A DNA stretch of 39,488 nucleotides from Granulicella sp. (GTDB lineage: Bacteria; Acidobacteriota; Terriglobia; Terriglobales; Acidobacteriaceae), in NCBI GenBank assembly GCA_003138795.1, contig PLHC01000046.1, positions 1 through 39,488 of the forward strand, read 5' to 3'. The number at the start of each line of letters is the position of its first letter. Position 1 is the first letter of the stretch. The notes under the pieces were generated by a model. The model ran no database searches. It saw only the letters and a list, made by a program, of their open reading frames with translations, and was not told the origin of the DNA. Below are positions 8,927 through 24,323 of the stretch, in pieces. Made by a program: the position numbers and the translations under genes.

Positions 8927-9811
8927 TTAGGTGGCTGCGTTCTGCAGGTCTCTGTAGTTGATGAGTTGGAGACGTGAAGGGTGCGTCGATTGTTTGGATG
9001 TCCCGGCAAAAGCGGCGGTCAGGGCGGCGAGTTCGATCTCGCGTGTGGAGCGCAGACGGGTGGTTATGGCGTCGAGGTCGCGGTCGTTGTAGCCGGGGTG
9101 GCAGACGAGTTCCCAGAGACCGTCGGGCATAGCGTCGAGGGTGGCGCTGAGCGTGGTGGTGTTGAGATGGCCGGTGGCGGAGATGCCGAGGGTGCCATCG
9201 GTTGTGATAACGCGACCGTTTCGGATCTGCGGAAGGGCAAGAAAGCGCGGGCGGAGGTGATGGATGATGCGAAGTTGCAGACGGCGGAGTAGAGAACTTT
9301 TGCCGAGAGCTAAGCTCCAGGGTTGTTCGAATGGGTTGCGGATGGCGGGGATTCCGGCGTGCTCTGCGGCGGCGAGAAGTGGCCGCGCAACCCTGGGCAG
9401 GATGTGGGTGTGCTTGTGGGTGTCGATGTGGGTGATGGCGATGCCGTGCTGCTGGAGGCGCGCGATCTGGGCCTGGGCTTCGCGGGCTATGTCTGCTTCG
9501 CTGATCTTGCCGCGGAGCACGGCGATGAGAAAGGCGGGAAGTGAGGTGCGGAAGCTCTTGCCGTCGGGGCCGAGAAGCGTGGGGATGGTGTGGGGTGGGG
9601 AGACAGGTATGCCGTCGGTGAGGACGATGTGGCAGCCGACACCGAGAGTGGGGTGGGCATGGGCGATGGCTACGGCGTCGTCGAAGGCTGGGCCGTTGGC
9701 CATGAGTGTGGCAGAGGTGAGAGCTCCGAGGGCGTGAAGCTCAGCGATCGCGCGGTTGATGCCGCAGGTGAGGCCGAAGTCGTCGGCATTGAGTATGAGG
9801 CGCGGAGGCAT
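8927..9811 (-). CDS. ChbG/HpnK (YdjC-like) carbohydrate deacetylase
   Basis: A 294-residue metal-dependent deacetylase. The family marks are visible: LILNADDFGLTCGINRAI at the N-terminus (paired Asp metal ligands), GVGCHIVLTDG, and HIDTHKHTHILP (His ligands), then LWELVCHPGYND. Family members remove acetyl groups from chito-oligosaccharides (ChbG) or act in hopanoid lipid tailoring (HpnK). Substrate here is not known. It is 58 bases upstream of bshA on the same strand and probably co-transcribed. BshB, the bacillithiol deacetylase, is of the LmbE/PIG-L family, so this is not BshB by sequence, though the pairing is suggestive. Confidence 0.87.
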   Translation of the reverse strand: MPPRLILNADDFGLTCGINRAIAELHALGALTSATLMANGPAFDDAVAIAHAHPTLGVGCHIVLTDGIPVSPPHTIPTLLGPDGKSFRTSLPAFLIAVLRGKISEADIAREAQAQIARLQQHGIAITHIDTHKHTHILPRVARPLLAAAEHAGIPAIRNPFEQPWSLALGKSSLLRRLQLRIIHHLRPRFLALPQIRNGRVITTDGTLGISATGHLNTTTLSATLDAMPDGLWELVCHPGYNDRDLDAITTRLRSTREIELAALTAAFAGTSKQSTHPSRLQLINYRDLQNAAT

Positions 9812-10122
9812 CGTGAGGGCTAGGGGACTTCCATCAAAGAGTTCTGGAGGTTCAGAGGACGCGCGCGGCGAAGGCTCTAAACCGGTTCGAGGTCTGCACC
9901 AAGTATAGGGACTTCAAAACATTCCACACGCAACAGGCTGTCGCCTTCAAGAAGCACCTTGCTGAGCAAAAGGCCCCGGTGAAAAACAAAACACCCCAAA
10001 AGTACCCACCGCAGGGCTTGGCTTCCATCGCACGCCTTCGGACGCAGGAACACGAAATATCCAGTATTTACTGGGATTTATGGGATATGTCGGATGGTAT
10101 TGGATGTCCTGAAACAATGGAA
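9812..10122. other. Mobile debris outside the left attachment repeat
   Basis: This stretch holds the integrase remnant and then about 130 bases of no recognisable coding content. A 14-bp perfect palindrome, CCAGTATTTACTGG, is at 10061-10074. A frame continuing to 10185 crosses the attachment repeat and is not considered a gene. Confidence 0.55.
9817..9990 (+). pseudogene. Remnant of a tyrosine recombinase N-terminus
   Basis: One open frame reads ALNRFEVCTKYRDFKTF, then the segment QQAVAFKKHLAEQKAP, which matches the SAM-like core-binding domain of phage/ICE integrases (inferred from family pattern). No catalytic domain follows: after about 9980 the frame reads unrelated sequence to a stop at 10185. 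There is no good start codon. It lies just outside the left attachment repeat, so it is probably left by an older integration at the same site. Confidence 0.6.
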
Positions 10123-10141
10123 TGGTGGGCAGAGAGGGACT
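10123..10141. repeat. Left attachment site core (att)
   Basis: Exact 19-bp copy of the tRNA-Val 3' end (TGGTGGGCAGAGAGGGACT). The match breaks on both sides, with a weaker likeness continuing as GTGAATCC against CGAACCC of the tRNA T-arm. Confidence 0.88.
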
Positions 10142-10201: not shown

Positions 10202-10223
10202 TTGTCAGATTTTTGTCAGATTT
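10202..10223 (+). repeat. Tandem 11-bp repeat, possible integrase arm site
   Basis: Two head-to-tail copies of TTGTCAGATTT, 61-82 bases inside the left attachment core and just upstream of the integrase start. The sequence CATTGTCAGA (10200-10209) recurs twice near the right end, at 17879-17888 and 17898-17907. This placement fits arm-type binding sites of a tyrosine integrase; autoregulation of int is another possibility. Confidence 0.6.
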
Positions 10224-10228
10224 GGCGG

Positions 10229-10234
10229 TATACT
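10229..10234 (+). promoter_or_regulatory. Putative -10 box of int (leaderless type)
   Basis: TATACT ends 8 bases before the integrase ATG at 10243, a spacing seen for leaderless transcripts. No clear -35 is visible. Confidence 0.4.
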
Positions 10235-10242
10235 GCTGGGGC

Positions 10243-11442
10243 ATGGCTAACAAAAAGGTAACACTGATGCGACTCTGCAAGACGCCTACAGGCTGGCGGC
10301 GTCTGCCTATTGTTATGGGTGCGAATGGCAAGGTTCGGCCTGGGTACGCGCTACTCAATGGCAAACCTGTACTGCTAGAGGGCCACTATGAACTGCGAGC
10401 GTACGAAGGAACGAGAACTGTCTACCAGAACGTAGGCAACAATGCAGCCGATGCGCTGGCGGCACAACAGCGCGAATCCCATCTGATGATCGCCAGAGAT
10501 GCAGCATCGTTGGCTGGTGCAGAAGTCATTGCCCCAGAACTGAAGCGAGTCAACCTGTTGGTCAAGAAAGATGAGTTCATACAGCGCCATCTTGATAGAG
10601 GGCAGATCCGCGCGTCGGAGACATCTACGATAGCGATTGACGGCTTCCTAGAGGCCACAGGCATCGCTTACGCCGATCAGGTGACGGAAGCATCCATCCT
10701 CGCGTTCTACAAGCACTTGAGGAAGCGGGGCAACCAAGACAGAACGATTTACAACAAGCACGCAAGCCTATTTGGTTTCTTCAAGTGGCTGGGCCTAGAC
10801 ACTAAAAAATTAGCAGATCGACCGCCAAGCTACACAGAGCGGGAAGTCGAGACGTTCCATGCTGACGACTTGCGAACGTTGTTTGCATCCTGCACCCCGT
10901 ACCAACGGGTTGTATTCGAGACATTGCTAAAGACTGGCCTCAGGATGCAGGAAGCTATGCACTTGACATGGGCAAACGTGGACTTTCGCAGGGGGATGAT
11001 TTATGTACGCGAGACAATGAACAATGAACAGGGCGGCGACGTTCGTATCAAGGATCGTGCAGAAAGATCAATGCCTCTGCCGGATGATCTTGCTGTCACG
11101 CTGAAAGATTGGAGGGAGCGTCACCCAAAGACGAAGCTAGTCCTAGGCACGGCCAACAATACCCCAAACTCAAAATGGCTACTCTCGCTCAAGCGCGTCG
11201 TGAAACGGGCTGGACTCAACTGTGGGCGCTGTCAGGGTTGCAGAAAATCCAATGAGTGCTCCCACTGGTGGATTCACAAATTCAGGGCAACGTACACTAC
11301 GACTCTCTTGCAAAATGGGGTTGATGTGCGCACGGTGATGGCCTATACGGGCCATGCAGATATGCAAACGGTGCTGCGTTATCTGTCCCCAGCCGAAGAT
11401 GCGCCCATGCAGAAAAAAATCAGTGGCATCAAATGGATGTAA
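10243..11442 (+). CDS. int: Tyrosine recombinase/integrase of the element
   Basis: A site-specific recombinase of 399 residues. Catalytic residues are visible: Arg234 (TGLRMQEAMHLTW), His345 and Arg348 (IHKFRAT), His371 (YTGHADMQT) and the nucleophile Tyr380 (VLRYLSPA). A SAM-like core-binding domain lies at about 100-185. Between the two catalytic halves is a Cys-rich insert, CGRCQGCRKSNEC (Cys327, 330, 333, 339, with His341 nearby), that could bind zinc. It sits next to the left attachment core, 101 bases inside it, and its 3' end overlaps the convergent xis-like gene by 14 bases. The ATG at 10243 is preferred to a TTG at 10213, because the TTG lies within the repeat. Confidence 0.93.
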   Translation: MANKKVTLMRLCKTPTGWRRLPIVMGANGKVRPGYALLNGKPVLLEGHYELRAYEGTRTVYQNVGNNAADALAAQQRESHLMIARDAASLAGAEVIAPELKRVNLLVKKDEFIQRHLDRGQIRASETSTIAIDGFLEATGIAYADQVTEASILAFYKHLRKRGNQDRTIYNKHASLFGFFKWLGLDTKKLADRPPSYTEREVETFHADDLRTLFASCTPYQRVVFETLLKTGLRMQEAMHLTWANVDFRRGMIYVRETMNNEQGGDVRIKDRAERSMPLPDDLAVTLKDWRERHPKTKLVLGTANNTPNSKWLLSLKRVVKRAGLNCGRCQGCRKSNECSHWWIHKFRATYTTTLLQNGVDVRTVMAYTGHADMQTVLRYLSPAEDAPMQKKISGIKWM

Positions 11443-11743
11443 AACCACGCTGCACCCATGCCGCTATAGCAGCAGCGGGGAATCGAATCATCGAACCTAG
11501 TTTGATATACGGTATGCGGTTGGTTTTGACCATCTCATAAATTTTCCCCTTGGAGCAGGAGAATAACTCGGCCAATTCCTCTGCCTTCCAAGCGGTACGC
11601 CTATTGCGAATTTCAGAGGCGAGTGCTTCCAGACCGTCAGGGGCAGCAGCGGCTTGCAGATCAATGGTGAGGTCGAAGGGGTCGCTGTCGTCGATGCCAA
11701 AGGCGGGTTGGCCGTAGGCGAGGGTGGTATAATTCTCTTGCAT
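11429..11743 (-). CDS. Excisionase-like helix-turn-helix protein
   Basis: A protein of 104 residues with a C-terminal winged-helix/MerR-like HTH (about 52-98): WKAEELAELFSCSKGKIYEMVKTNRIPYIKLGSMIRF. This is the AlpA/excisionase-type pattern, with the typical wing of a conserved Gly before an Arg-Phe. The N-terminal half is acidic and unrecognised. CTGGAGACTC gives a good ribosome binding site for the ATG at 11743. It is convergent with and overlaps int by 14 bases, which favours a role as recombination directionality factor, although regulation of the element's genes is possible. Confidence 0.82.
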   Translation of the reverse strand: MQENYTTLAYGQPAFGIDDSDPFDLTIDLQAAAAPDGLEALASEIRNRRTAWKAEELAELFSCSKGKIYEMVKTNRIPYIKLGSMIRFPAAAIAAWVQRGFTSI

Positions 11744-11822
11744 GAGTCTCCAGTGTTGAGTTGTGTTACAATGTCTCGCCTTTAGGCTCTCAGAGGCTCT
11801 AGGACGAATTGAAGGATATAAA

Positions 11823-11922
11823 AACCCCCGCGCGAATGTCCAGCGACAGCACCACGGGCCAGCCAGCGTCAGGGCTAGTGCATCTGGTGAAGGCGAGTCG
11901 CTAACATTCGCAGCAGGGGGTT
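11823..11922. repeat. Long imperfect inverted repeat (about 100 bases)
   Basis: Nested arms: AACCCCC 11823-11829 with GGGGGTT 11916-11922; GCGAATGT 11832-11839 with ACATTCGC 11904-11911; AGCGAC 11842-11847 with GTCGCT 11897-11902; CACCA 11850-11854 with TGGTG 11885-11889; AGCC 11861-11864 with GGCT 11873-11876. About 30 pairs in total. The size and form resemble a single-strand origin or a structured RNA. Confidence 0.85.
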
Positions 11923-12004
11923 CTATTCGGGGCTATTCGGGGTTGAACCCCCTTCTAGGGCGAGGTTTCAAACCTGAACTGCCAATAGGTACGGGATAAG
12001 TGCT

Positions 12005-12123
12005 TTGTTATCAGCACTGTGTGATGTGTTGCTGTGAAAGTTTTATTATGGCGTCGGTGCTGGCGGTCGAAGACCTGTGGGAAGTTACTCACCCCTACCA
12101 GTGCATTATGTAGTTGATAACAA
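12005..12123. repeat. Second long inverted repeat
   Basis: TTGTTATCA at 12005-12013 pairs with TGATAACAA at 12115-12123, and GCACTG at 12014-12019 pairs with CAGTGC at 12099-12104. The apical part is about 80 bases without obvious pairing. Confidence 0.75.
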
Positions 12124-12150
12124 ACAGCTTACATGCTTAATGTGATACGG

Positions 12151-12798
12151 CTAGGCGGCTTCGGCTGCTTCGTCCTGGCCTTCATCCTGCGATGCATCCT
12201 GTCCTGTATCGCGTTCTGCCTCAGCGTCGATACCGCCGTGCTGTGGTTCATAGGTGGACTTGGCGGCGCGATACCGCGTCTCTTCAGCACGGCCAATGCA
12301 TACACCTGGGCGACACTCAAGTTCTGCCCAACGTTGCAGCGCCTTCAATTCCTCGGAGTCGGGTTGCAGCAGCGTCCACCGAACATTGAACCTTCGGAGT
12401 TGTTTCTTCAGTGGGCGGCTTTCATCGGCGATGGTTGCAGGTTCCTCGCGCAGATACGTCGCGGCTTCGATCAAACTGGGATTGTCGGTGCGTATTTCAA
12501 TGGTCAACAACGTTGGCTCTTCGTGGCCTTCGGCTGCTGCCCAACGTTGGCAGATCAGCAGTTCGGCTTCTGTCGTTCGGGTGGACAGCGAGCATAACCC
12601 GCGCGTGGTCGCAGCGACCAAGGCATTATCTCCGCCAAGGTCGCAGGGCGCTGCGGACCTGTGGCAGATTGCCATTTGTTTCGATGTGAGGCCGTAGATG
12701 CTGAGATGATCGGAGGCCGTTACGGTGATACTGATTGGTTCAGGCCGTGATGGTGGGGCTGGTGCTTCTAGGTTCGTGGTGGGTACTTTGATAAGCAT
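12151..12798 (-). CDS. Hypothetical protein downstream of rep
   Basis: About 215 residues, not recognised. Visible are a Pro-rich N-terminus, a middle region with short helices (SLIEAATYLREEPATI, LKKQLRRFNVRWTLL), several cysteines (PCDLGGD, LECRPGVC) and a strongly acidic Gln/Asp/Glu/Ala tail. It follows rep on the same strand. The start is uncertain: the ATG at 12798 has AAGAAAG upstream, whereas a GTG at 12912 would put the start 15 bases after the rep stop. Its position suggests a partner of Rep or an element maintenance function. Confidence 0.6.
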   Translation of the reverse strand: MLIKVPTTNLEAPAPPSRPEPISITVTASDHLSIYGLTSKQMAICHRSAAPCDLGGDNALVAATTRGLCSLSTRTTEAELLICQRWAAAEGHEEPTLLTIEIRTDNPSLIEAATYLREEPATIADESRPLKKQLRRFNVRWTLLQPDSEELKALQRWAELECRPGVCIGRAEETRYRAAKSTYEPQHGGIDAEAERDTGQDASQDEGQDEAAEAA

Positions 12799-12927
12799 TT
12801 GAGGATCTTTCTTGGTGGTGGTGCTGTCCACTCGCGCAGAGTATGCAAACGGTGGACAGCGGGGATGGATTACAACGTAACGATTGCTTCTAGGGTGTTC
12901 CGTGGGGATCACATGTCGGCTGGCATA

Positions 12928-13743
12928 CTATGCAGCGACGGCAAGTTCAATCACTGCCTCAGTGGTCACTGCCCTTGGTTTGGGACGCTGGCGGTGTAGT
13001 GGGCCAAAGAAGCGAGTTGTTCCTTGCAAGTCCGCTACACGGTCGATGAACATGCTCGGGTCTAGGAGTTGCTGGCGATACTCTGCTACGGCGTCACTGG
13101 TCAATGAGCCTTTGCAGACATAGCGCGTGACACGCTCCAGATCGTCGATGCATCGTGGGACTCGCAGCATTACGGCGCTCAAGTCCCTTGCGGGGTGCCT
13201 GGGGTTCTGCCTCTTGAGTGAGAAGTTCGGATTGCGCTTACGAGCGAGTGAACAACACTCTTCCCAAAGGTTGACCCAACCACCTTGACTGATGCGGTGT
13301 CGGCCCTGATCCATCGGACGGGTGACAAGGATCGCGTGCGTGTGGACGCACGGTGGCGCGTTGAGATGCTTCGTCGCAACCTCGGCAACTGCGAAGTAGG
13401 CAACGACGCGGCTGGCAATCCGTGGGTGTCGAAGTAGGCGGCGGGTTGCTGCTACGGCTGCCCTTGCTGAACTGTGAACGTCGGCGCTGTCCTCGGTGGC
13501 AAGGGTCAGGAACCAAAGTTGTAGGTCTTCATCGGTTGCCAACAATGCGGATAGTGTCTCGGAGAGGTGCTGGTATTCGCGCCACGCTCGGCGGCTGTTG
13601 CATCGTGGACAGAATGGAGACTTGCACCATTGGAAGCCGTAGCAGTGACGAATCTTTATTGCGTCTTTGTACAGATTGAACCTGTGCAAAACTGTTGATA
13701 CATCGGCTGAAACGCGCTCCAAAGAGGGGTAGAATTTACTCAT
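12928..13743 (-). CDS. Rolling-circle replication initiator (HUH, Rep_1-like)
   Basis: A protein of 271 residues with the three motifs of the pC194/pUB110 Rep superfamily: motif I LWFLTLATED (about 77-86), motif II CVHTHAIL with metal ligands His134 and His136, and motif III LERVTRYVCKG with catalytic Tyr208 and Lys211 (YxxK). An N-terminal Cys cluster, WCKSPFCPRCNSRRAWR (Cys40, 45, 48), also occurs in Rep_1 proteins. Such enzymes nick a double-strand origin and start rolling-circle replication. Finding it inside a tRNA-integrated element implies a circular replicating stage. About 950 non-coding bases precede it. Spacing of the weak TGGAAAC ribosome site to the ATG at 13743 is acceptable. 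Confidence 0.83.
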   Translation of the reverse strand: MSKFYPSLERVSADVSTVLHRFNLYKDAIKIRHCYGFQWCKSPFCPRCNSRRAWREYQHLSETLSALLATDEDLQLWFLTLATEDSADVHSSARAAVAATRRLLRHPRIASRVVAYFAVAEVATKHLNAPPCVHTHAILVTRPMDQGRHRISQGGWVNLWEECCSLARKRNPNFSLKRQNPRHPARDLSAVMLRVPRCIDDLERVTRYVCKGSLTSDAVAEYRQQLLDPSMFIDRVADLQGTTRFFGPLHRQRPKPRAVTTEAVIELAVAA

Positions 13744-14642: not shown

Positions 14643-14686
14643 CCTGTTACATTGACCTCATCGAACGTAGCAGAAAACGTAACAGG
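14643..14686. promoter_or_regulatory. Inverted repeat before the serine recombinase
   Basis: CCTGTTAC (14643-14650) and GTAACAGG (14679-14686), 28 bases apart and ending 10 bases before the ATG. This could be an operator for autoregulation or a resolvase subsite. Confidence 0.45.
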
Positions 14687-14696
14687 GGTGGATGAG

Positions 14697-15374
14697 ATGG
14701 CAAACGGCAAGTTTGTAGGGTACTTCAGAGTCAGCACAGCGAAGCAAGGCGCATCTGGACTAGGGCTGGAAGCGCAGCAGCAAGCGGTGAGCAACTACCT
14801 GAACGGCGGACACTGGAAGATGGTTGGTGAGTTTGTCGAGATTGAAAGCGGCAAGCGGAACGACCGTCCGAAGCTGGCAGAGGCCCTGGCACTGTGCCGC
14901 CTACACGGTGCAACGTTGATCATTGCGAAGCTGGACAGACTGGCGAGGAACGTCAATTTCATAAGCAATCTTATGGAATCAAGTGTTGAGTTTGTCGCTG
15001 TTGACTTCCCACAAGCGAACCGCCTTACTGTTCACATTCTCGCAGCAGTAGCAGAGCATGAGGCAAGTATGATCTCCGCACGCACCAAGGCTGCTCTAGG
15101 CGCTGCCAAGGCTCGCGGGGTGGTGTTAGGTGGTGATCGCGGCAACATCGCAGCAGAGGCCGTCAAGGGTGCAAAGGCAAGTGCTGTAAAGCGTGGTGCC
15201 AAGGCTGCGAACCGCGCCAGCGACTTACTCCCCGTCATTCGGACTGCACAAGCAAACGGCGCATCGTCATTGCGCCAGATTGCCGAAGTCCTAAATAGCA
15301 AGGGGCTAACGACCGCGCGGGGTGGCGAGTGGTCGGCTGTGCAGGTACAGCGGGTGATGAACAAAGCGTCGTAG
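14697..15374 (+). CDS. Serine recombinase (resolvase/invertase family)
   Basis: A protein of 225 residues. The N-terminal catalytic domain has YFRVSTAKQ with nucleophile Ser13 and Arg11, AKLDRLARN (Arg81, Arg84) and EHEASMISARTKAAL, the start of the long E helix. A C-terminal resolvase-like HTH is visible as SLRQIAEVLNSKGLTTARGGEWSAVQVQRVM. It probably resolves multimers of the replicating circle, or recombines at the repeats upstream of it. The ATG at 14697 is preceded by AGGGG and GGATGAG; a TTG at 14652 is less likely. It is the only plus-strand gene in the right half of the element. Confidence 0.92.
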   Translation: MANGKFVGYFRVSTAKQGASGLGLEAQQQAVSNYLNGGHWKMVGEFVEIESGKRNDRPKLAEALALCRLHGATLIIAKLDRLARNVNFISNLMESSVEFVAVDFPQANRLTVHILAAVAEHEASMISARTKAALGAAKARGVVLGGDRGNIAAEAVKGAKASAVKRGAKAANRASDLLPVIRTAQANGASSLRQIAEVLNSKGLTTARGGEWSAVQVQRVMNKAS

Positions 15375-15535: not shown

Positions 15536-17113
15536 TTACCGTCGGCTGCGATGGAGCCAATATTTCATTCCGAGAAGAGTAACTTCGAGTTTGAATCTCC
15601 AGGTCGATTGATAGCTCAAAGACATGTCTACGCCGTGATGACAGTGACACCTAGTGTCCCTGATCGTTTTTCTCAGGGCCTTGGCCGTATCGCTCGCCAA
15701 TAAGCTATGGATATTGTAGTCGAACTCTCTAATATTGCCCATTTTCCATCTATCCTGATCGAGCCCCTCCGGGTATCCAAGGTTCTCGCATGGAAACACG
15801 TCTCCCTCTGGTGACATAACCACGCGCAGTTTCCCAGACTGGCAGGGAACATAGAACTTCGGATTTTGATAATATCGCGCGATCTTCATTCGAATCAATT
15901 CGCGATAGGCTCTAATAAAGGGATTGTGTGACTTGGATTCACAATGAAGTTGGTGATTTAGCTCTTCGAATTTCTGGAGATCAAGCTTTGGGTGATAACT
16001 TTTATGCGGCCTGACTAATGCAAAGCTAATGTCATCGGGTCTGACTCTATTTCTTATGTAGGACATCAACTCATCAATTTTCGATTGATTGTAATCGCCA
16101 AAAGTGGTGATGACGCATAAGGATATATTCTTGAACCTTTTGACATTTTCCTGAACCTTTATTACTGTGCCTTCCCAAAGCTGAAACGCCTTTGGATGAA
16201 CGCTAAACTCATTCATTTCCTGACCTAATGCATTCAGCGAAAAGTGAAATCTAAGGTACTTCTTGCTTTTCTCCCCAAATAGTTGCACGACCTTGGTGGC
16301 GTTCTTTTCCTGGGAGCCGTTCGTTGGAAGACAGACGGTCTCTGTGTTCCAGTCCTGCGCCACGGAAAGAACAAGTTCAGAGATGTCGTTGCGCATCAAT
16401 GGCTCGCCTCCGCCTATATGCACCCTTTGCATTGAATGAATGTGCTTACCCATCTCTTGAACCTCTTCAACAGACAAAAACTTTGTCTTTTTCACGTTGA
16501 GTTTGTCCAACAGAAAGCAATGCCTGCATCGAAAGTTGCATTTATCAGTCACAAAGAAAGTCATCTCCAACAGGCGATTCTTGAATATCAAGCCGTCGAT
16601 ATTGCGAAACACGTTGTACCCGCTCTTCCTATCCGGGCGCGTCTCTAAGACGGAGATTCGAGAGATGGCAGGAGCTACTTCATTCTGAATGGTCAGGTTT
16701 GGTTCGAACGATTCAGCGTCTTTCAGTTTTTCAGTAAGATTTGCAACATCATACAACGCAAGAATTCTTCCATGGATTTCAAGATAGCGTACCAATTCAG
16801 TCTGCCCCAATCCAGAATCAAGCGCTTCTCCCTCCTCTTTCAGGCGAGGAACAGCAATCACTTTCTTCTTCAGCTTTAGGCATTCGTAAATACTTCCGTA
16901 ACCGCCATGCGTGACAACTATTCGGGCATCCCTAATCTTGCGTTCGATTTCGCTGTGGGACATAAACCTGAAATATGTTGCGTGCTTCGGCAATGTCGTA
17001 GAGTTCCCGAGTTGCACCTCTACCCGATCTTCGCTCGACTCCGCATAAGTATCAATTGCCTCGATAAGTCTTCGGAAATCGTAGGGATTGGTTCCTAGTA
17101 ACACAAGTACCAT
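15536..17113 (-). CDS. Alg13-like glycosyltransferase fused to radical SAM/SPASM-like enzyme
   Basis: One polypeptide of 525 residues. Residues 1-160 resemble the GT28 C-terminal/Alg13 fold, with RFMSHSEIERKIRDARIVVTHGG, GSIYECL and a VPR...E...GQ..L UDP-sugar loop. Residues 183-420 are a radical SAM domain: CNFRCRHC (Cys192, 196, 199), GGGEP (234-238), LPTNGS and RFHFSLNA. The C-terminus has Cys424, Cys442 (SPEGDVFPC), Cys489 and Cys491, a SPASM-like set that could bind an auxiliary cluster. The ATG at 17113 overlaps the Alg14-like stop by one base (TGATG), so translation is coupled and a complex is likely. Expected chemistry: the Alg13/14 pair transfers a sugar to a lipid-linked or protein acceptor, and the radical SAM part modifies the acceptor or sugar. 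Substrate unknown. AT-rich relative to its neighbours. Confidence 0.85.
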   Translation of the reverse strand: MVLVLLGTNPYDFRRLIEAIDTYAESSEDRVEVQLGNSTTLPKHATYFRFMSHSEIERKIRDARIVVTHGGYGSIYECLKLKKKVIAVPRLKEEGEALDSGLGQTELVRYLEIHGRILALYDVANLTEKLKDAESFEPNLTIQNEVAPAISRISVLETRPDRKSGYNVFRNIDGLIFKNRLLEMTFFVTDKCNFRCRHCFLLDKLNVKKTKFLSVEEVQEMGKHIHSMQRVHIGGGEPLMRNDISELVLSVAQDWNTETVCLPTNGSQEKNATKVVQLFGEKSKKYLRFHFSLNALGQEMNEFSVHPKAFQLWEGTVIKVQENVKRFKNISLCVITTFGDYNQSKIDELMSYIRNRVRPDDISFALVRPHKSYHPKLDLQKFEELNHQLHCESKSHNPFIRAYRELIRMKIARYYQNPKFYVPCQSGKLRVVMSPEGDVFPCENLGYPEGLDQDRWKMGNIREFDYNIHSLLASDTAKALRKTIRDTRCHCHHGVDMSLSYQSTWRFKLEVTLLGMKYWLHRSRR

Positions 17114-17559
17114 CACATTACCCTCAAGAACTTTGCCTTTGGATAGAAAGCGAAGAGATTTGGCGATTGAATGAAAAAATGATCGGAAAAGTGATAAAGC
17201 AGCCTCCCCGTCTTTGAGGGGAATTGGATTCTTGATCCGCTTTCAACGAATATGGTCTTACATCCCAGAATCTTGCCGATCAAGAACAGAGCAATACTCT
17301 GACCACCACCAGTGGAGAGAATTATTTCCGGCGTTGTTTTTCGATAAATAGCAAATGATTGGACGATATTAAGAATATATTTATGAAGGCTTCGATGCGG
17401 ATCAACAATAAAGATCATGTTTGGTGAGGCGGTTTCCAACAAATGAGGGAGACGTGTGGTCACGTAAACCACATCAGACCCGCTGACCAACTCAAGCGCA
17501 ATCCTAGCTTCGCGCAAGTGCCCGCCACCTGGGGCGACAGCTAGAATTCTAGCTTTCAA
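17113..17559 (-). CDS. Alg14-like membrane partner of the fused glycosyltransferase
   Basis: A protein of 148 residues with the Alg14/EpsE-type pattern: RILAVAPGGGHLREARIALE at the N-terminus, STGGGQSIALFLIGKILGCKTIFVESGSRI (nucleotide-sugar site) and FSDHFFIQSP at the end. In the family, Alg14 anchors and activates the soluble Alg13 catalytic half; here the Alg13-like half is fused to a radical SAM domain in the next gene. The start is a TTG at 17559, the only in-frame start after an upstream TAA TGA; AAAGGA lies 13 bases before it. It has lower GC than the chromosomal genes around the element, which suggests transfer. Confidence 0.85.
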   Translation of the reverse strand: MKARILAVAPGGGHLREARIALELVSGSDVVYVTTRLPHLLETASPNMIFIVDPHRSLHKYILNIVQSFAIYRKTTPEIILSTGGGQSIALFLIGKILGCKTIFVESGSRIQFPSKTGRLLYHFSDHFFIQSPNLFAFYPKAKFLRVM

Positions 17560-17603: not shown

Positions 17604-17804
17604 ACACTCCACAAGATACTCCACAAGCTGATTTGGCCTATCTCGGTGCAGTGCCGGGTGCTGCTGGTGAGCGTCTCTGGCTATCATCAACACCTGGCGC
17701 GATGCGTGCATATTGCCCAGCGCCGTCACCTCAGCGACGAAGCACTGCTGGTTCACATCAGCGCCGTCTATGCGGAGAATCGCGGCGCATACCTATCGCC
17801 GTAG
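17604..17804 (+). pseudogene. Remnant of an IS3-family transposase (OrfB)
   Basis: One frame reads WPISVQCRVLLVSVSGYHQH, then HLSDEALLVHISAVYAENRG, which is the N-terminal part of an IS3 OrfB (family knowledge). It stops at a TAG at 17802 with no integrase core after it. It has no start or terminal repeats, so it is a decayed insertion next to the cargo. Confidence 0.72.
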
Positions 17805-18027: not shown

Positions 18028-18104
<77 letters not shown>

Positions 18105-20681: not shown

Positions 20682-23600
20682 CTAATCTTCGGTGAGGCGT
20701 TCGGTCGACTTGGACATCAGCGCCGTGCGCTCGAGTTTGTCCCAACTGAAGCTCTTGCCATCGATGGCGCGCTTTACCGTTCGAATGAGCACCCAGGAGA
20801 AGAGTTGGCGATAGGTGAAACGTTGAATCCAGATGTGGAAGAGCAGCCACGCATCGCCTTTGCTGGCTGGGTGCTTACGCTCGAGCATGAACGCCAGCGC
20901 CGAGGCGGCGAAGTCGATCAGCAGGAAGGCAAGGAAAAACGTTAGCAGCTTGTAGAGGTCGGACGGGCTGGTGGTATCCGGGTGGAAGTGCTTATCGATG
21001 AAGTAGTGGATGACGCCCGCGACGAACATCAGGTCGATGAGCGGCGAGACGAGCGGAAGAAGTATCTGGAAGATCAGAATATTTGGTAATGCGAAGAGTC
21101 CCATGGCGCGGCGATTGGCGATGGCTCCGCGGTGTTTGAAGATTGCCTGCAAGATGCCGAAGGACCAGCGGAAGCGCTGGCGCGCCAAGCCATTGGCGTT
21201 GACAGGAGCCTCGGTGAAGGCTAGCGCCTGATCTTCGTAGATTACGGCGTATCCCTGCTCGAGCAGGTTCATCGTGAGATCTGCATCCTCGGCTACGGTG
21301 TCCGGATGATAGCCGCCGCCGGCTTTGACCGCGGCGGTCCGCCACGCGCCGATGGCCCCGGGAACGACCATGACGACGTCGAACAAATCCAGCGCCCTGC
21401 GCTCAAAGTTCTGGCTGGTGATGTACTCGAGCGCCTGCCAGCGGGTCCATAGATTCACCCGGTTGCCCACCTTCGCGTTCCCTGCAACGGCGCCGATATG
21501 TGGGTTTGCGAAGTGGCAGACGAGTCGCGAGATTGCGTCATGAGCGATGACACCATCGGCATCAATGCCAACGTAAATCTCCTCGTCGGTCTGGTTTAGT
21601 GCAAAATTGAGCGCGTCTGCTTTGCCGCCGTTCGGTTTCGTCAGCACCGTAACGCGACCGGCGGCGATCTCTTTCGCGTAGGTCTCGGAGGCTATCTGGA
21701 ACGTCTTGTCTTTGGAGCCATCGTCGATGACGATAATGCGGATGTTCTTGTAGTTGGACATCAGCACCGAGCGAATGGTTCGGACGATGACCTTCTCCTC
21801 GTTATAGGCGGGGATCAGCACAGCTACCCGCGGCTGGTAGTCGGGCGTGGCGAAGTTCTTGCGGTGGCGGAATCGGTCGATCGTAGCGAATAGGCCGATG
21901 ATGATCAGGCGGCCGCTCATCAGAACGTCACCGATGAAGAAGACGCCAATAACGAAGTGGTTGAAGAAGGAGATCAACAGAAACGCAATGGAGTCGATCG
22001 CCGCGTAGTAGCGCTGTCGTCCCTTTAGCGGCGGCATTACCTGGTCGCGTGTTTGGCCGATGAGCTGCGATACCGGGACGATCGTATACCCCTGCGCGCG
22101 GAGTGCCTTGATCAGCTCCGGCAACGCGGCGACTGTGGCAGAACGGTCGCCGCCGCCGTCGTGCATCAGGATGACCGAACCCTTCATCCATGGCTTTGTG
22201 TCAAATTGCGCAATCTGCTCGAAGACGCTGTTGATGACCGCCTGCGGTGTCTTGCGCGGATGCTCATCCCAGTCATTGGTGTCGATCTTGTCGCCGACGA
22301 TTACGTAGCCGAGGTGCTGAATGCGGTCGACAGGAGCAGCCTGGTCGTTCGTGTCCGGTTCCTGGTCAATTGAGTACGGTGGCCGGAAGTATACGGGCTG
22401 AACCCCCAGCTCCGCCGCAAACAGCCGCTCGGTGAGGTTCAACTGCAGGTCCACCTGGCGGTCGGAGATCTCGGAGATGTCGGGATGCGTGTAGGTGTGA
22501 TTGCCGATCTCGTGGCCCTCACGGTAGACGCGCTTTATCAGGCCGATATTGTCCTGCGCCTCCTCGCCAATCATGAAGAACGTACCCCTCACGTTGTACT
22601 GCTTCAGGATGTCGAGGATCTTCGGGGTCCACTCAGGATCCGGACCGTCATCGAAGCTGAGCGCTACTTCCTTGGGGTGATAGCCGTACTGCGAGAGGGT
22701 GTAGGGCAGGGGATAGGAGTCCATCGACTCGGACATCACACTGAGATACTGCGGCGGAATCGTCGTGTCGTCGTCCATCGTCAGAGTGCGATGGCCATTC
22801 TGCGGCTGGCTGGTGACGCGGAGAATGTCGCCGTCGCCCTCGGTGTCCACATCCTGGCCTGGAGCGACCTCCGCGAGTTCCTTCACGGGATCCGACTTGA
22901 GTGGATTGTCCCAGATCTTCCAGAGTGAATCGTCTTCCAGTCCCAGCCGCCACAGGGCGAAGGTCTGGATGCCAAGCGCGCGCGCGACGCGCATCTGGTT
23001 CAGCGCCGTCACAGCGTCGAGAAACCACACCTGATGTTGTACTTTCGCATCGACATCGTCATACGCGAAGCGTGGGTTCAGGGAGTCGCCGTCGAGGCTG
23101 ATCTTCGCTTCAGAGTCTGACGCCTCCTGCCAGGCCTCCTGCGTAGAGAGCATGGTCGTGTTCAGAATCACGTGGTTTGTGGGCGGCTTCGGCGCGCGAT
23201 GGCCCTTGCGCAGGTTCGGCGGGGCGGGTGGCAGCGCCGTGGTCCAGTCGTAGCCGTAACTGCCGATGGAGCAGATGATCTTTTCGCGCGGCACAACCTT
23301 CATCACCGTGCGCAGGTTGTTCGCAAACCAGTCCTGGCTGGCGATGGGGCCAGGATCGCTCTCGGTCTGATGCTCACCATAATTCATCAGCACAAGACCA
23401 TCGGAGTGGTTGGCGAGGAACTTCAGGTCGAGGCTGCCGAGGGTCACCGGGACATTGATATATAACCGCAGATTGCGCGGATGGAAGTCGTCGTATAAGG
23501 CCTGTACGAGCTGGCTATAGGCGACCTGAGCGTCCGGAGGAAGGCCCTGAAAGTCGAGCGTCAGCCCACGATACCGCGTGTTGGCGGCAAGAAACTGATC

Positions 23601-24236
23601 GACCTGGTGAACGAAGTTGGCTCGCGCCGCTCCGTTAAGAAGGAACTGCTCGACGCTCGGCTCGAAGGCCCCGTCGATGGGACTGTAGTTGTTCACCATC
23701 GGGAAGATTTCCGTATCTTCCTTGGCTGCAGTGATGGTACGGACGATCTTGTTCTCCCGGTCGACGCCATGCACGCCGGTCGAGTCGACGACGGCGAACG
23801 GGATATTGTCCGAGGTGTAGGCCGTCAACGATCCATTTGGCGTCACCACGTGCAGCCACTCGGGGAAGAGCAGATCGATCTGCTTCACGTGTTCTTTGAA
23901 CGAGGCGTAACTGGCCGGGTCCAGGTCGGTATAAAACGCCGCACGGAGGCCTTCGCCCTGGTTCAGGACCACGTCGGAAGGTTTGACGTCGGTCTTACGA
24001 TGGGCGGAGCGGTTGAGCTTCTCGCGTGGGTTGAGCTCAGGCGCAGGGGGATTAGAGAGAGCTCGATAGCGCTTTGTCGCGGAACGGAGATCGAGGCCCC
24101 GCATGGGCTTCATTCGTACCAGCCCGACGACGAAAAACACGCCTACGACAGCGCCTAGAAGAGCCAGCACGTCGAATATTCGCCGCAGCCGCTTCCAGCG
24201 TTTGCGTTGCGGATCGTAGAAGACTTGTTTGCGCAT
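20682..24236 (-). CDS. GH18-like / NodB deacetylase / GT2 synthase fusion protein
   Basis: About 1184 residues, with three modules and several membrane helices. A signal-anchor helix is at about 23-40. A GH18-like domain (100-440) has LTLDFQGLP, where the catalytic Glu of the usual DxE is Gln230. A NodB (CE4) deacetylase (520-720) has SFDDGPD (Asp529, 530), NHTYTHP (His580, 584), FRPPYS and LMHDGG. A GT2 synthase (802-1040) has IPAYNEE, DADG (892-895), EDADLT (983-988) and RQRFRW (QxxRW), and is followed by membrane helices. It resembles poly-N-acetylglucosamine deacetylase/synthase (PgaB/PgaC-like) in one chain. Likely role: synthesis and deacetylation of an exported polysaccharide. The ATG at 24236 is the start; divergent from the GT39-like gene. 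Confidence 0.9.
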   Translation of the reverse strand: MRKQVFYDPQRKRWKRLRRIFDVLALLGAVVGVFFVVGLVRMKPMRGLDLRSATKRYRALSNPPAPELNPREKLNRSAHRKTDVKPSDVVLNQGEGLRAAFYTDLDPASYASFKEHVKQIDLLFPEWLHVVTPNGSLTAYTSDNIPFAVVDSTGVHGVDRENKIVRTITAAKEDTEIFPMVNNYSPIDGAFEPSVEQFLLNGAARANFVHQVDQFLAANTRYRGLTLDFQGLPPDAQVAYSQLVQALYDDFHPRNLRLYINVPVTLGSLDLKFLANHSDGLVLMNYGEHQTESDPGPIASQDWFANNLRTVMKVVPREKIICSIGSYGYDWTTALPPAPPNLRKGHRAPKPPTNHVILNTTMLSTQEAWQEASDSEAKISLDGDSLNPRFAYDDVDAKVQHQVWFLDAVTALNQMRVARALGIQTFALWRLGLEDDSLWKIWDNPLKSDPVKELAEVAPGQDVDTEGDGDILRVTSQPQNGHRTLTMDDDTTIPPQYLSVMSESMDSYPLPYTLSQYGYHPKEVALSFDDGPDPEWTPKILDILKQYNVRGTFFMIGEEAQDNIGLIKRVYREGHEIGNHTYTHPDISEISDRQVDLQLNLTERLFAAELGVQPVYFRPPYSIDQEPDTNDQAAPVDRIQHLGYVIVGDKIDTNDWDEHPRKTPQAVINSVFEQIAQFDTKPWMKGSVILMHDGGGDRSATVAALPELIKALRAQGYTIVPVSQLIGQTRDQVMPPLKGRQRYYAAIDSIAFLLISFFNHFVIGVFFIGDVLMSGRLIIIGLFATIDRFRHRKNFATPDYQPRVAVLIPAYNEEKVIVRTIRSVLMSNYKNIRIIVIDDGSKDKTFQIASETYAKEIAAGRVTVLTKPNGGKADALNFALNQTDEEIYVGIDADGVIAHDAISRLVCHFANPHIGAVAGNAKVGNRVNLWTRWQALEYITSQNFERRALDLFDVVMVVPGAIGAWRTAAVKAGGGYHPDTVAEDADLTMNLLEQGYAVIYEDQALAFTEAPVNANGLARQRFRWSFGILQAIFKHRGAIANRRAMGLFALPNILIFQILLPLVSPLIDLMFVAGVIHYFIDKHFHPDTTSPSDLYKLLTFFLAFLLIDFAASALAFMLERKHPASKGDAWLLFHIWIQRFTYRQLFSWVLIRTVKRAIDGKSFSWDKLERTALMSKSTERLTED

Positions 24237-24323
24237 CGATAGCAAAACGTTCTTCTAATGATACTACCCATGCGCTTATGGCACCGGGGGCAGGGGGGCG
24301 TGCGAGAGAGAGCCGATGCCTCG

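Follow-up and report, generated by a model that had tools for sequence, protein, structure and literature searches.

The window analysed here, a stretch of 39,488 nucleotides from Granulicella sp. (Acidobacteriota; GenBank assembly GCA_003138795.1, contig PLHC01000046.1), carries a pair of genes that are cargo of a 7.9-kb integrase element in a tRNA-Val gene. The first gene encodes a small PssD/Alg14-like protein, and the second a protein in which a PssE/Alg13-like glycosyltransferase (GT) domain is fused to a radical S-adenosylmethionine (SAM) enzyme with a Twitch-type C-terminal domain. The pair and the parts of the fusion protein are arranged as follows:

17113–17559, minus strand: PssD/Alg14-like protein, 148 amino acids, TTG start (Pfam Alg14, 1.9e-12)
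15536–17113, minus strand: PssE/Alg13-like, radical SAM and Twitch-type fusion, 525 amino acids, ATG at 17113, stop ending at 15536
16685–17113, minus strand: GT-B C-terminal (nucleotide-sugar binding) half, residues 1–143, GGYGS at 70–74 (Pfam GT28_C)
16577–16684, minus strand: linker, residues 144–179, per-residue model confidence (pLDDT) under 50
15863–16570, minus strand: radical SAM barrel and following region, residues 182–417, CxxxCxxC at 192–199, GGGEP at 234–238 (Pfam Radical_SAM, 3.6e-13)
15614–15862, minus strand: Twitch-type domain, residues 418–500, Cys424-x17-Cys442 and Cys489-x-Cys491 (Pfam SPASM, 9.2e-05)

Gene calls and Pfam bear out the sequence-only reading of this locus, which had described an Alg13-like/radical SAM fusion coupled to an Alg14-like partner by a one-base overlap: in the junction TGATG, the TGA of the Alg14-like gene and the ATG of the fusion share one base. 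Within the fusion, Glyco_tran_28_C (residues 3–95; 34 bits against a cutoff of 22), Radical_SAM (189–351; 50.5 against 29.5, with CxxxCxxC and GGEP present) and SPASM (425–492; 23.1 against 21.5) follow one another in that order, each over its Pfam gathering score, as is Alg14 in the upstream protein (48.0 bits against 27). The Pfam positions in the fusion use a 526-residue numbering, one more than the 525-residue numbering used elsewhere; an in-frame GTG at 17116, one codon upstream of the ATG, is an alternative start that gives 526 amino acids. The GT domain had been drawn as residues 1–160, continuous with the radical SAM core. The two are indeed fused, but the GT fold extends only to about residue 143, and the low-confidence linker comes next.

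A scan of genome contigs with the fusion protein matched seven stretches, one of which (L033), from a Bacteroidota metagenome-assembled genome, codes for a relative. The L033 fusion is 63% identical to the window fusion in an alignment spanning residues 1–525, its partner gene (9561–10001) encodes a protein 50% identical to the window Alg14-like protein from residue 2 onward, and the two genes again overlap by one base (TAATG). A full-length relative with the same pair and overlap in another phylum rules out an assembly or frameshift error. It also answers the database check that had been proposed for the fused domain order, and because that whole order recurs at 63% identity across phyla we place the fusion beyond chance. 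The two fusions agree least in the GT half (53% identity) and more closely in the barrel (67%) and the Twitch region (75%), and besides the seven cluster-type cysteines both proteins contain Cys78 and Cys261. The radical parts show ratios of nonsynonymous to synonymous differences (pN/pS) of 0.24 and 0.22, and the GT half one of 0.41, values that are only indicative given a pS of 0.80–0.97, near saturation. Both halves look constrained. A fusion that arose by chance or has decayed, with one half active and the other a relic, would fit the great rarity of this arrangement in the sampled genomes and the L033 scores for Glyco_tran_28_C (18.3; cutoff 22) and SPASM (18.4; cutoff 21.5), both just below their Pfam cutoffs. 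We nonetheless consider it very improbable: the order and the one-base overlap are kept in two phyla at the identities given above, pN/pS is under 0.5, and motifs are intact in both proteins. Directly after the L033 fusion lies a gene for a 284-amino-acid protein (11621–12475) that is left unmatched by Pfam, NCBIfam, PADLOC and PHROGs under the limits applied. We rejected it as a conserved part of the module, as it had no match in the window's genome (E ≤ 1) and none in 246 other genomes of the L033 phylum (E ≤ 1e-6).

The fusion is rare in every sample that we searched. For 396 genomes of the window's phylum, with up to three candidates scored per genome, the list at E ≤ 1e-15 comprised 54 matches from 52 genomes; both halves were spanned by the window alone, and the other 53 lay in the radical half (50) or the PssE half (3). 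At E ≤ 1e-40, the only match among 398 genomes of the window's family was the window itself, and the only match among 395 genomes of the phylum of L033, or among 64 genomes of its order, was L033 itself (these four samples overlap one another). One stretch of viral contigs matched the fusion and none was confirmed, and a two-row alignment query found nine relatives in viral contigs, all confined to residues 169–362, with no such fusion. The PssE half matched 30 stretches of viral contigs by pattern, of which none was confirmed. Plasmid records (56) and phage records (7) also gave matches, with no place covering 80% of the query among the matches listed (20 of the 56 plasmid records). The single-protein scan of genome contigs reaches close relatives only, metagenomes lie outside the search, and further copies of the fusion may exist outside the sampled genomes.

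The element that carries the pair contains the following additional features:

10123–10141: left att core, 19 bp, identical to 18028–18046
10213–11442, plus strand: tyrosine integrase of the element (Pfam Phage_integrase, 4.2e-24)
11429–11743, minus strand: excisionase-like helix-turn-helix protein (NCBIfam excise, 8e-11)
12928–13743, minus strand: Rep_1-type replication protein (Pfam Rep_1, 2.3e-16)
14652–15374, plus strand: serine recombinase/resolvase (Pfam Resolvase, 1.8e-28)
18028–18104, minus strand: tRNA-Val (tac), the integration target, whose 3' end holds the right att core

That the pair lies in an AT-richer block of a tRNA-integrated element had been proposed before, and both parts of this proposal held. 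The 19-bp core repeat and the adjacent integrase are accompanied by near-empty sites in two same-genus genomes: across seven same-genus loci compared at the tRNA-Val site, the distance from the left flank to the tRNA match, 8.2 kb in the window, is 85 bases in L090 and 27 bases in L092, with 980 bases in L088 and about 4.1 kb in L091; in L087 and L089 the left flank was not matched. L086 holds another insert of ~5.1 kb at the same tRNA-Val, with a 25-bp repeat and a DDE transposase, and the site looks like an integration hotspot. GC content in the block of the pair is ~45%, against 48–58% in the rest of the element and 56–64% in the left flank, and third-position GC (GC3) is 0.46–0.52 in the pair, 0.60–0.61 in three other element genes and 0.62–0.78 in three chromosomal genes. 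This base composition therefore indicates that the pair was acquired from elsewhere. Three further frames were noted. A 253-amino-acid element protein beside Rep_1 (12151–12912, minus strand) is likewise without a match in Pfam, NCBIfam, PADLOC and PHROGs under the limits applied; a 52-amino-acid frame between the pair and the tRNA-Val (17646–17804, plus strand) resembles by eye part of an IS3-type transposase, a likeness that is unconfirmed and has no Pfam match; and outside the element, at 20682–24245 on the minus strand, lies a gene for a 1187-amino-acid protein with GH18, polysaccharide deacetylase and GT2 domains.

With regard to the GT half, the domain calls support the Alg13/Alg14-like naming of the pair, and more precisely the nearest bacterial family is PssD/PssE (Cps14F/Cps14G). 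The best NCBIfam matches are PssE (NF041548; 110.7 bits, cutoff 120) and PssD (NF041549; 105.7 bits, cutoff 110), which places the pair just outside the curated cutoffs; L033 scores 95.6 for PssE and 109.1 for PssD. Adjacent, overlapping genes in this order with conserved GGGHL-type and GGxGS-type motifs, as expected of PssD/PssE, are present. In Rhizobium leguminosarum, PssDE is reported to work as two subunits that transfer glucuronic acid to a lipid-linked glucose (PMC7589315). The 148-residue PssD/Alg14-like protein would be the acceptor-side half of a split GT-B glycosyltransferase. A two-row model of the GT half alone (residues 1–149; pLDDT 70.8, predicted TM-score (pTM) 0.72) matches GT-B donor domains, with EspG2 and GtfA first and the UDP-glucuronic-acid-binding domains of human UDP-glucuronosyltransferases also present. 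The phylum sample contained one PssD/PssE pair amid GT-like genes (L046, annotated by eye).

In the radical SAM half, alignment with the relative puts Cys192, Cys196 and Cys199, GGGEP, and Cys424, Cys442, Cys489 and Cys491 where the sequence-only reading had placed them. The CxxxCxxC cysteines, GGEP and the four C-terminal cysteines are invariant in a 12-row alignment that includes ten standalone relatives (22–26% identical to the window protein). The label SPASM-like held in part. Pfam does call SPASM, but the seven-cysteine motif that accompanies two auxiliary clusters (CX9-15GX4C-gap-CX2CX5CX3C-gap-C, as given in PMC6231123) is absent, and the four C-terminal cysteines with their CXC tail are those of Twitch, a truncated SPASM of one-cluster form according to PMC9012708. 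As judged from its cysteines, the tail of the fusion is a Twitch layout, with residues for one predicted auxiliary cluster.

Standalone relatives of the radical SAM half tend to lie near glycosyltransferase genes. Within up to about 1.5 kb on either side of the radical SAM match, a gene of GT2 or monogalactosyldiacylglycerol (MGDG)/GT28 type was found at 13 of 29 same-phylum loci (L004–L032) and at 1 of 31 controls (Fisher p 1.4e-4), the controls being 3.9-kb segments cut from same-genus loci and from the right flank of the window, of similar size and not matched radical SAM loci. Removing the four loci whose own GT had trained the profiles left 9 of 25 against 1 of 31 (p 0.003). By Pfam, MGDG_synth genes adjoin the radical SAM genes of L056 (4720–7158) and L057 (5913–8364), and GT2 genes lie at or near those of L050, L055, L060, L065 and L067; a local profile adds an MGDG/GT28-type neighbour in L022, L024, L025, L027 and L032. 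In the viral contig L067 (1155–2946), the CXC radical SAM gene shares a few bases with an overlapping GT2 gene, and another GT2 gene follows just downstream. Together these loci point to a broader group of CXC Twitch radical SAM enzymes with glycosyltransferase neighbours, present both in one bacterial phylum and among viral contigs.

A second GT fusion occurs in another viral contig (L068, 3041–4996), where one protein of 652 amino acids joins GT2 to a CXC-tailed radical SAM domain. As in the window protein, the glycosyltransferase is N-terminal; it is, however, GT2, which has the GT-A fold and is unrelated to GT-B. A 19-row tree joins the window to L033 at 100/100. A topology that places L068 with this pair is disfavoured (approximately unbiased test, p 0.038), in an analysis with long branches and with a group named after an earlier tree had been seen. 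The different GT families and the tree point to separate fusion events for the GT2- and GT-B-type fusions.

The MGDG-synthase-type genes of L056 and L057, together with a fatty acid desaturase gene near the radical SAM gene of L050, would also suit an enzyme that edits lipids, its radical domain acting on the acyl or polyprenyl chain of an acceptor lipid that the GT glycosylates. Similarity to tetraether lipid synthase points the same way, weakly and far under the NCBIfam cutoff of that family. On the other side, PssDE as described in PMC7589315 acts on a lipid-linked sugar and not on an acyl chain, and a candidate membrane-binding C-terminal helix was rejected, as hydrophobic moments of 0.05 and 0.06 are not amphipathic, which counts against this reading too. 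We judge lipid editing quite improbable.

Sequence comparison thus documents four things: intact domains and motifs, a recurring fusion, a mobile setting, and an association of this radical SAM family with glycosyltransferases. The explanation that we favour, and to which we give about an even chance, is a mobile two-gene glycan-modification module, in which a split GT-B enzyme would attach a sugar to a lipid-linked acceptor, and either this sugar or the acceptor would be edited by the fused radical domain. The PssD-like and PssE-like halves would assemble into the split glycosyltransferase, the PssE half binding a UDP-sugar and the PssD half presenting the acceptor, probably a membrane-associated, lipid-linked sugar. 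The donor is perhaps UDP-glucuronic acid, a guess from the Rhizobium PssDE. Behind the PssE half, the radical SAM/Twitch domain would convert SAM to a 5'-deoxyadenosyl radical and use it on the sugar that was transferred or on the acceptor, for instance in a dehydrogenation, epimerisation or decarboxylation. There are precedents: NeoN reportedly epimerises a sugar in neomycin, and HpnJ is said to act after a glycosyltransferase and to change the hopanoid-bound sugar. A fuller version, which we hold tentatively and somewhat short of an even chance, is that one complex transfers a sugar and then edits that same sugar on the lipid-linked acceptor, that it is spread by a small integrative element, and that it is one of at least two separate GT/Twitch radical SAM fusions.

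Several observations weigh against the glycan module, in addition to the near-saturated pS. No polysaccharide cluster surrounds the pair in the window or at the L033 locus, and 16 of the 29 standalone loci had no GT by the neighbour test, whose controls were unmatched. In a profile search of solved structures, the peptide-modifying SkfB is closest (1.3e-18) and BlsE far weaker (2.1e-06, also weaker than MoaA); the best single-sequence match to a solved structure is the nucleotide enzyme MoaA (4e-08). An AlphaFold2 model of the fusion from a 6-row alignment (mean pLDDT 74.7, pTM 0.60) has the GT half and the barrel mostly well folded, with pLDDT under 50 at residues 419–424, 443–451 and 491–500 of the Twitch region, so that fold matches rest mainly on the barrel. 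The lowest Foldseek E-values against the PDB belong to sactipeptide enzyme structures and to those of anaerobic sulfatase-maturating enzyme (anSME). In favour of the glycan module, the top TM-scores among the 50 Foldseek matches listed (query 0.45, target 0.69) are those of BlsE, which decarboxylates a glucuronosyl residue (PMC3715490); DesII, AbmM, BtrN, SpeY, SuiB, SkfB, MoaA and viperin also appear. A fold search of BFVD named no glycosyltransferase fusion among the 50 matches listed, the named ones being mostly radical SAM or Fe-S proteins. Since PMC6231123 warns of the difficulty of inferring function from similarity in this radical SAM subfamily, we do not rely on fold likeness for function.

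The main rival explanation is a peptide maturase, in which a ribosomal peptide would be cross-linked or epimerised by the radical SAM/Twitch domain and glycosylated by the GT pair, giving a radical-modified glycopeptide. The sactisynthase SkfB, besides being closest by profile, also has a Twitch domain with CXC, and the best folds include structures of sactipeptide enzyme, anSME and SuiB. Nevertheless, in SkfB, CteB and SuiB a recognition element (RRE) for ribosomally synthesized and post-translationally modified peptides (RiPPs) precedes the barrel, as described in PMC6231123, whereas in the window fusion a GT domain occupies that place. For the window proteins, Pfam listed no family of RRE type up to E 1, in a search whose HMMER filters drop most weak matches. 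Comparing small open reading frames (ORFs; 15–120 amino acids), 159 of the element against 211 around L033 at E 0.01, returned, apart from frames that shadow the fusion gene out of frame, a single match of 11 residues (E 0.008). With neither an RRE-type family nor a convincing small ORF common to both loci, we rejected assignment to a RiPP system, in keeping with the earlier remark that no precursor peptide is obvious near the pair, and we regard the peptide maturase as unlikely. The sequence-only reading had left the target of the module as a glycan or a peptide. Because of the GT neighbours of standalone relatives, the second GT–radical SAM fusion, and the lack of an RRE-type family and of a shared small ORF, we tilt towards a glycan or lipid-linked glycan, the substrate and reaction being those conjectured above.

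A viperin-type anti-phage or nucleotide-modifying enzyme carried by a mobile element would account for the cargo position of the genes, and PADLOC viperin models match the core of the fusion at 4e-12. Those matches cover the barrel and not the Twitch domain, the NCBIfam viperin model gives 40.4, far from its cutoff of 180, and the GT half has no role in such an enzyme; it is highly improbable. As the fusion showed weak viperin-core matches alone, we also rejected its assignment to a defence system.

The glycan module combines features of several known systems. PssD/PssE shares with the window pair two small overlapping genes, Alg14-like then Alg13-like, as well as the best profile matches and the motifs; three aligned PssE relatives end within about 160–200 residues, whereas the window protein continues into radical SAM and Twitch domains. 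The Twitch-type enzymes SkfB, BtrN and MoaA have CxxxCxxC, GGEP and cysteines for one auxiliary cluster in common with the fusion, at 13–17% identity in the fold matches listed; SkfB, with its CXC Twitch domain, is distinguished by an RRE in place of the N-terminal glycosyltransferase domain. BlsE, a cytosylglucuronate decarboxylase, acts on a glucuronosyl substrate, the residue that PssDE transfers (PMC3715490 and PMC7589315), but is 14% identical in the fold alignment and its substrate, cytosylglucuronic acid, is a small molecule. In the literature searched, which included few subscription papers and no bioRxiv preprints, no paper joined radical SAM with Alg13, with Alg13 and Alg14, or with PssE, and the paper found for radical SAM fused to a glycosyltransferase domain concerns another subject. 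The sequence-only reading likewise knew of no described system with this fusion, and we rate the PssE–radical SAM fusion as a variant of known enzyme kinds that was not found in the literature searched.

This rare combination suggests that one machine may both attach a sugar and edit it chemically. If both halves act on one substrate, glycosyl transfer and radical glycan editing would be directly linked in a single protein. The fusion also names a likely partner for the CXC Twitch radical SAM class, whose substrate thereby becomes testable, and a naturally fused, mobile version would offer a convenient entry point to this class.

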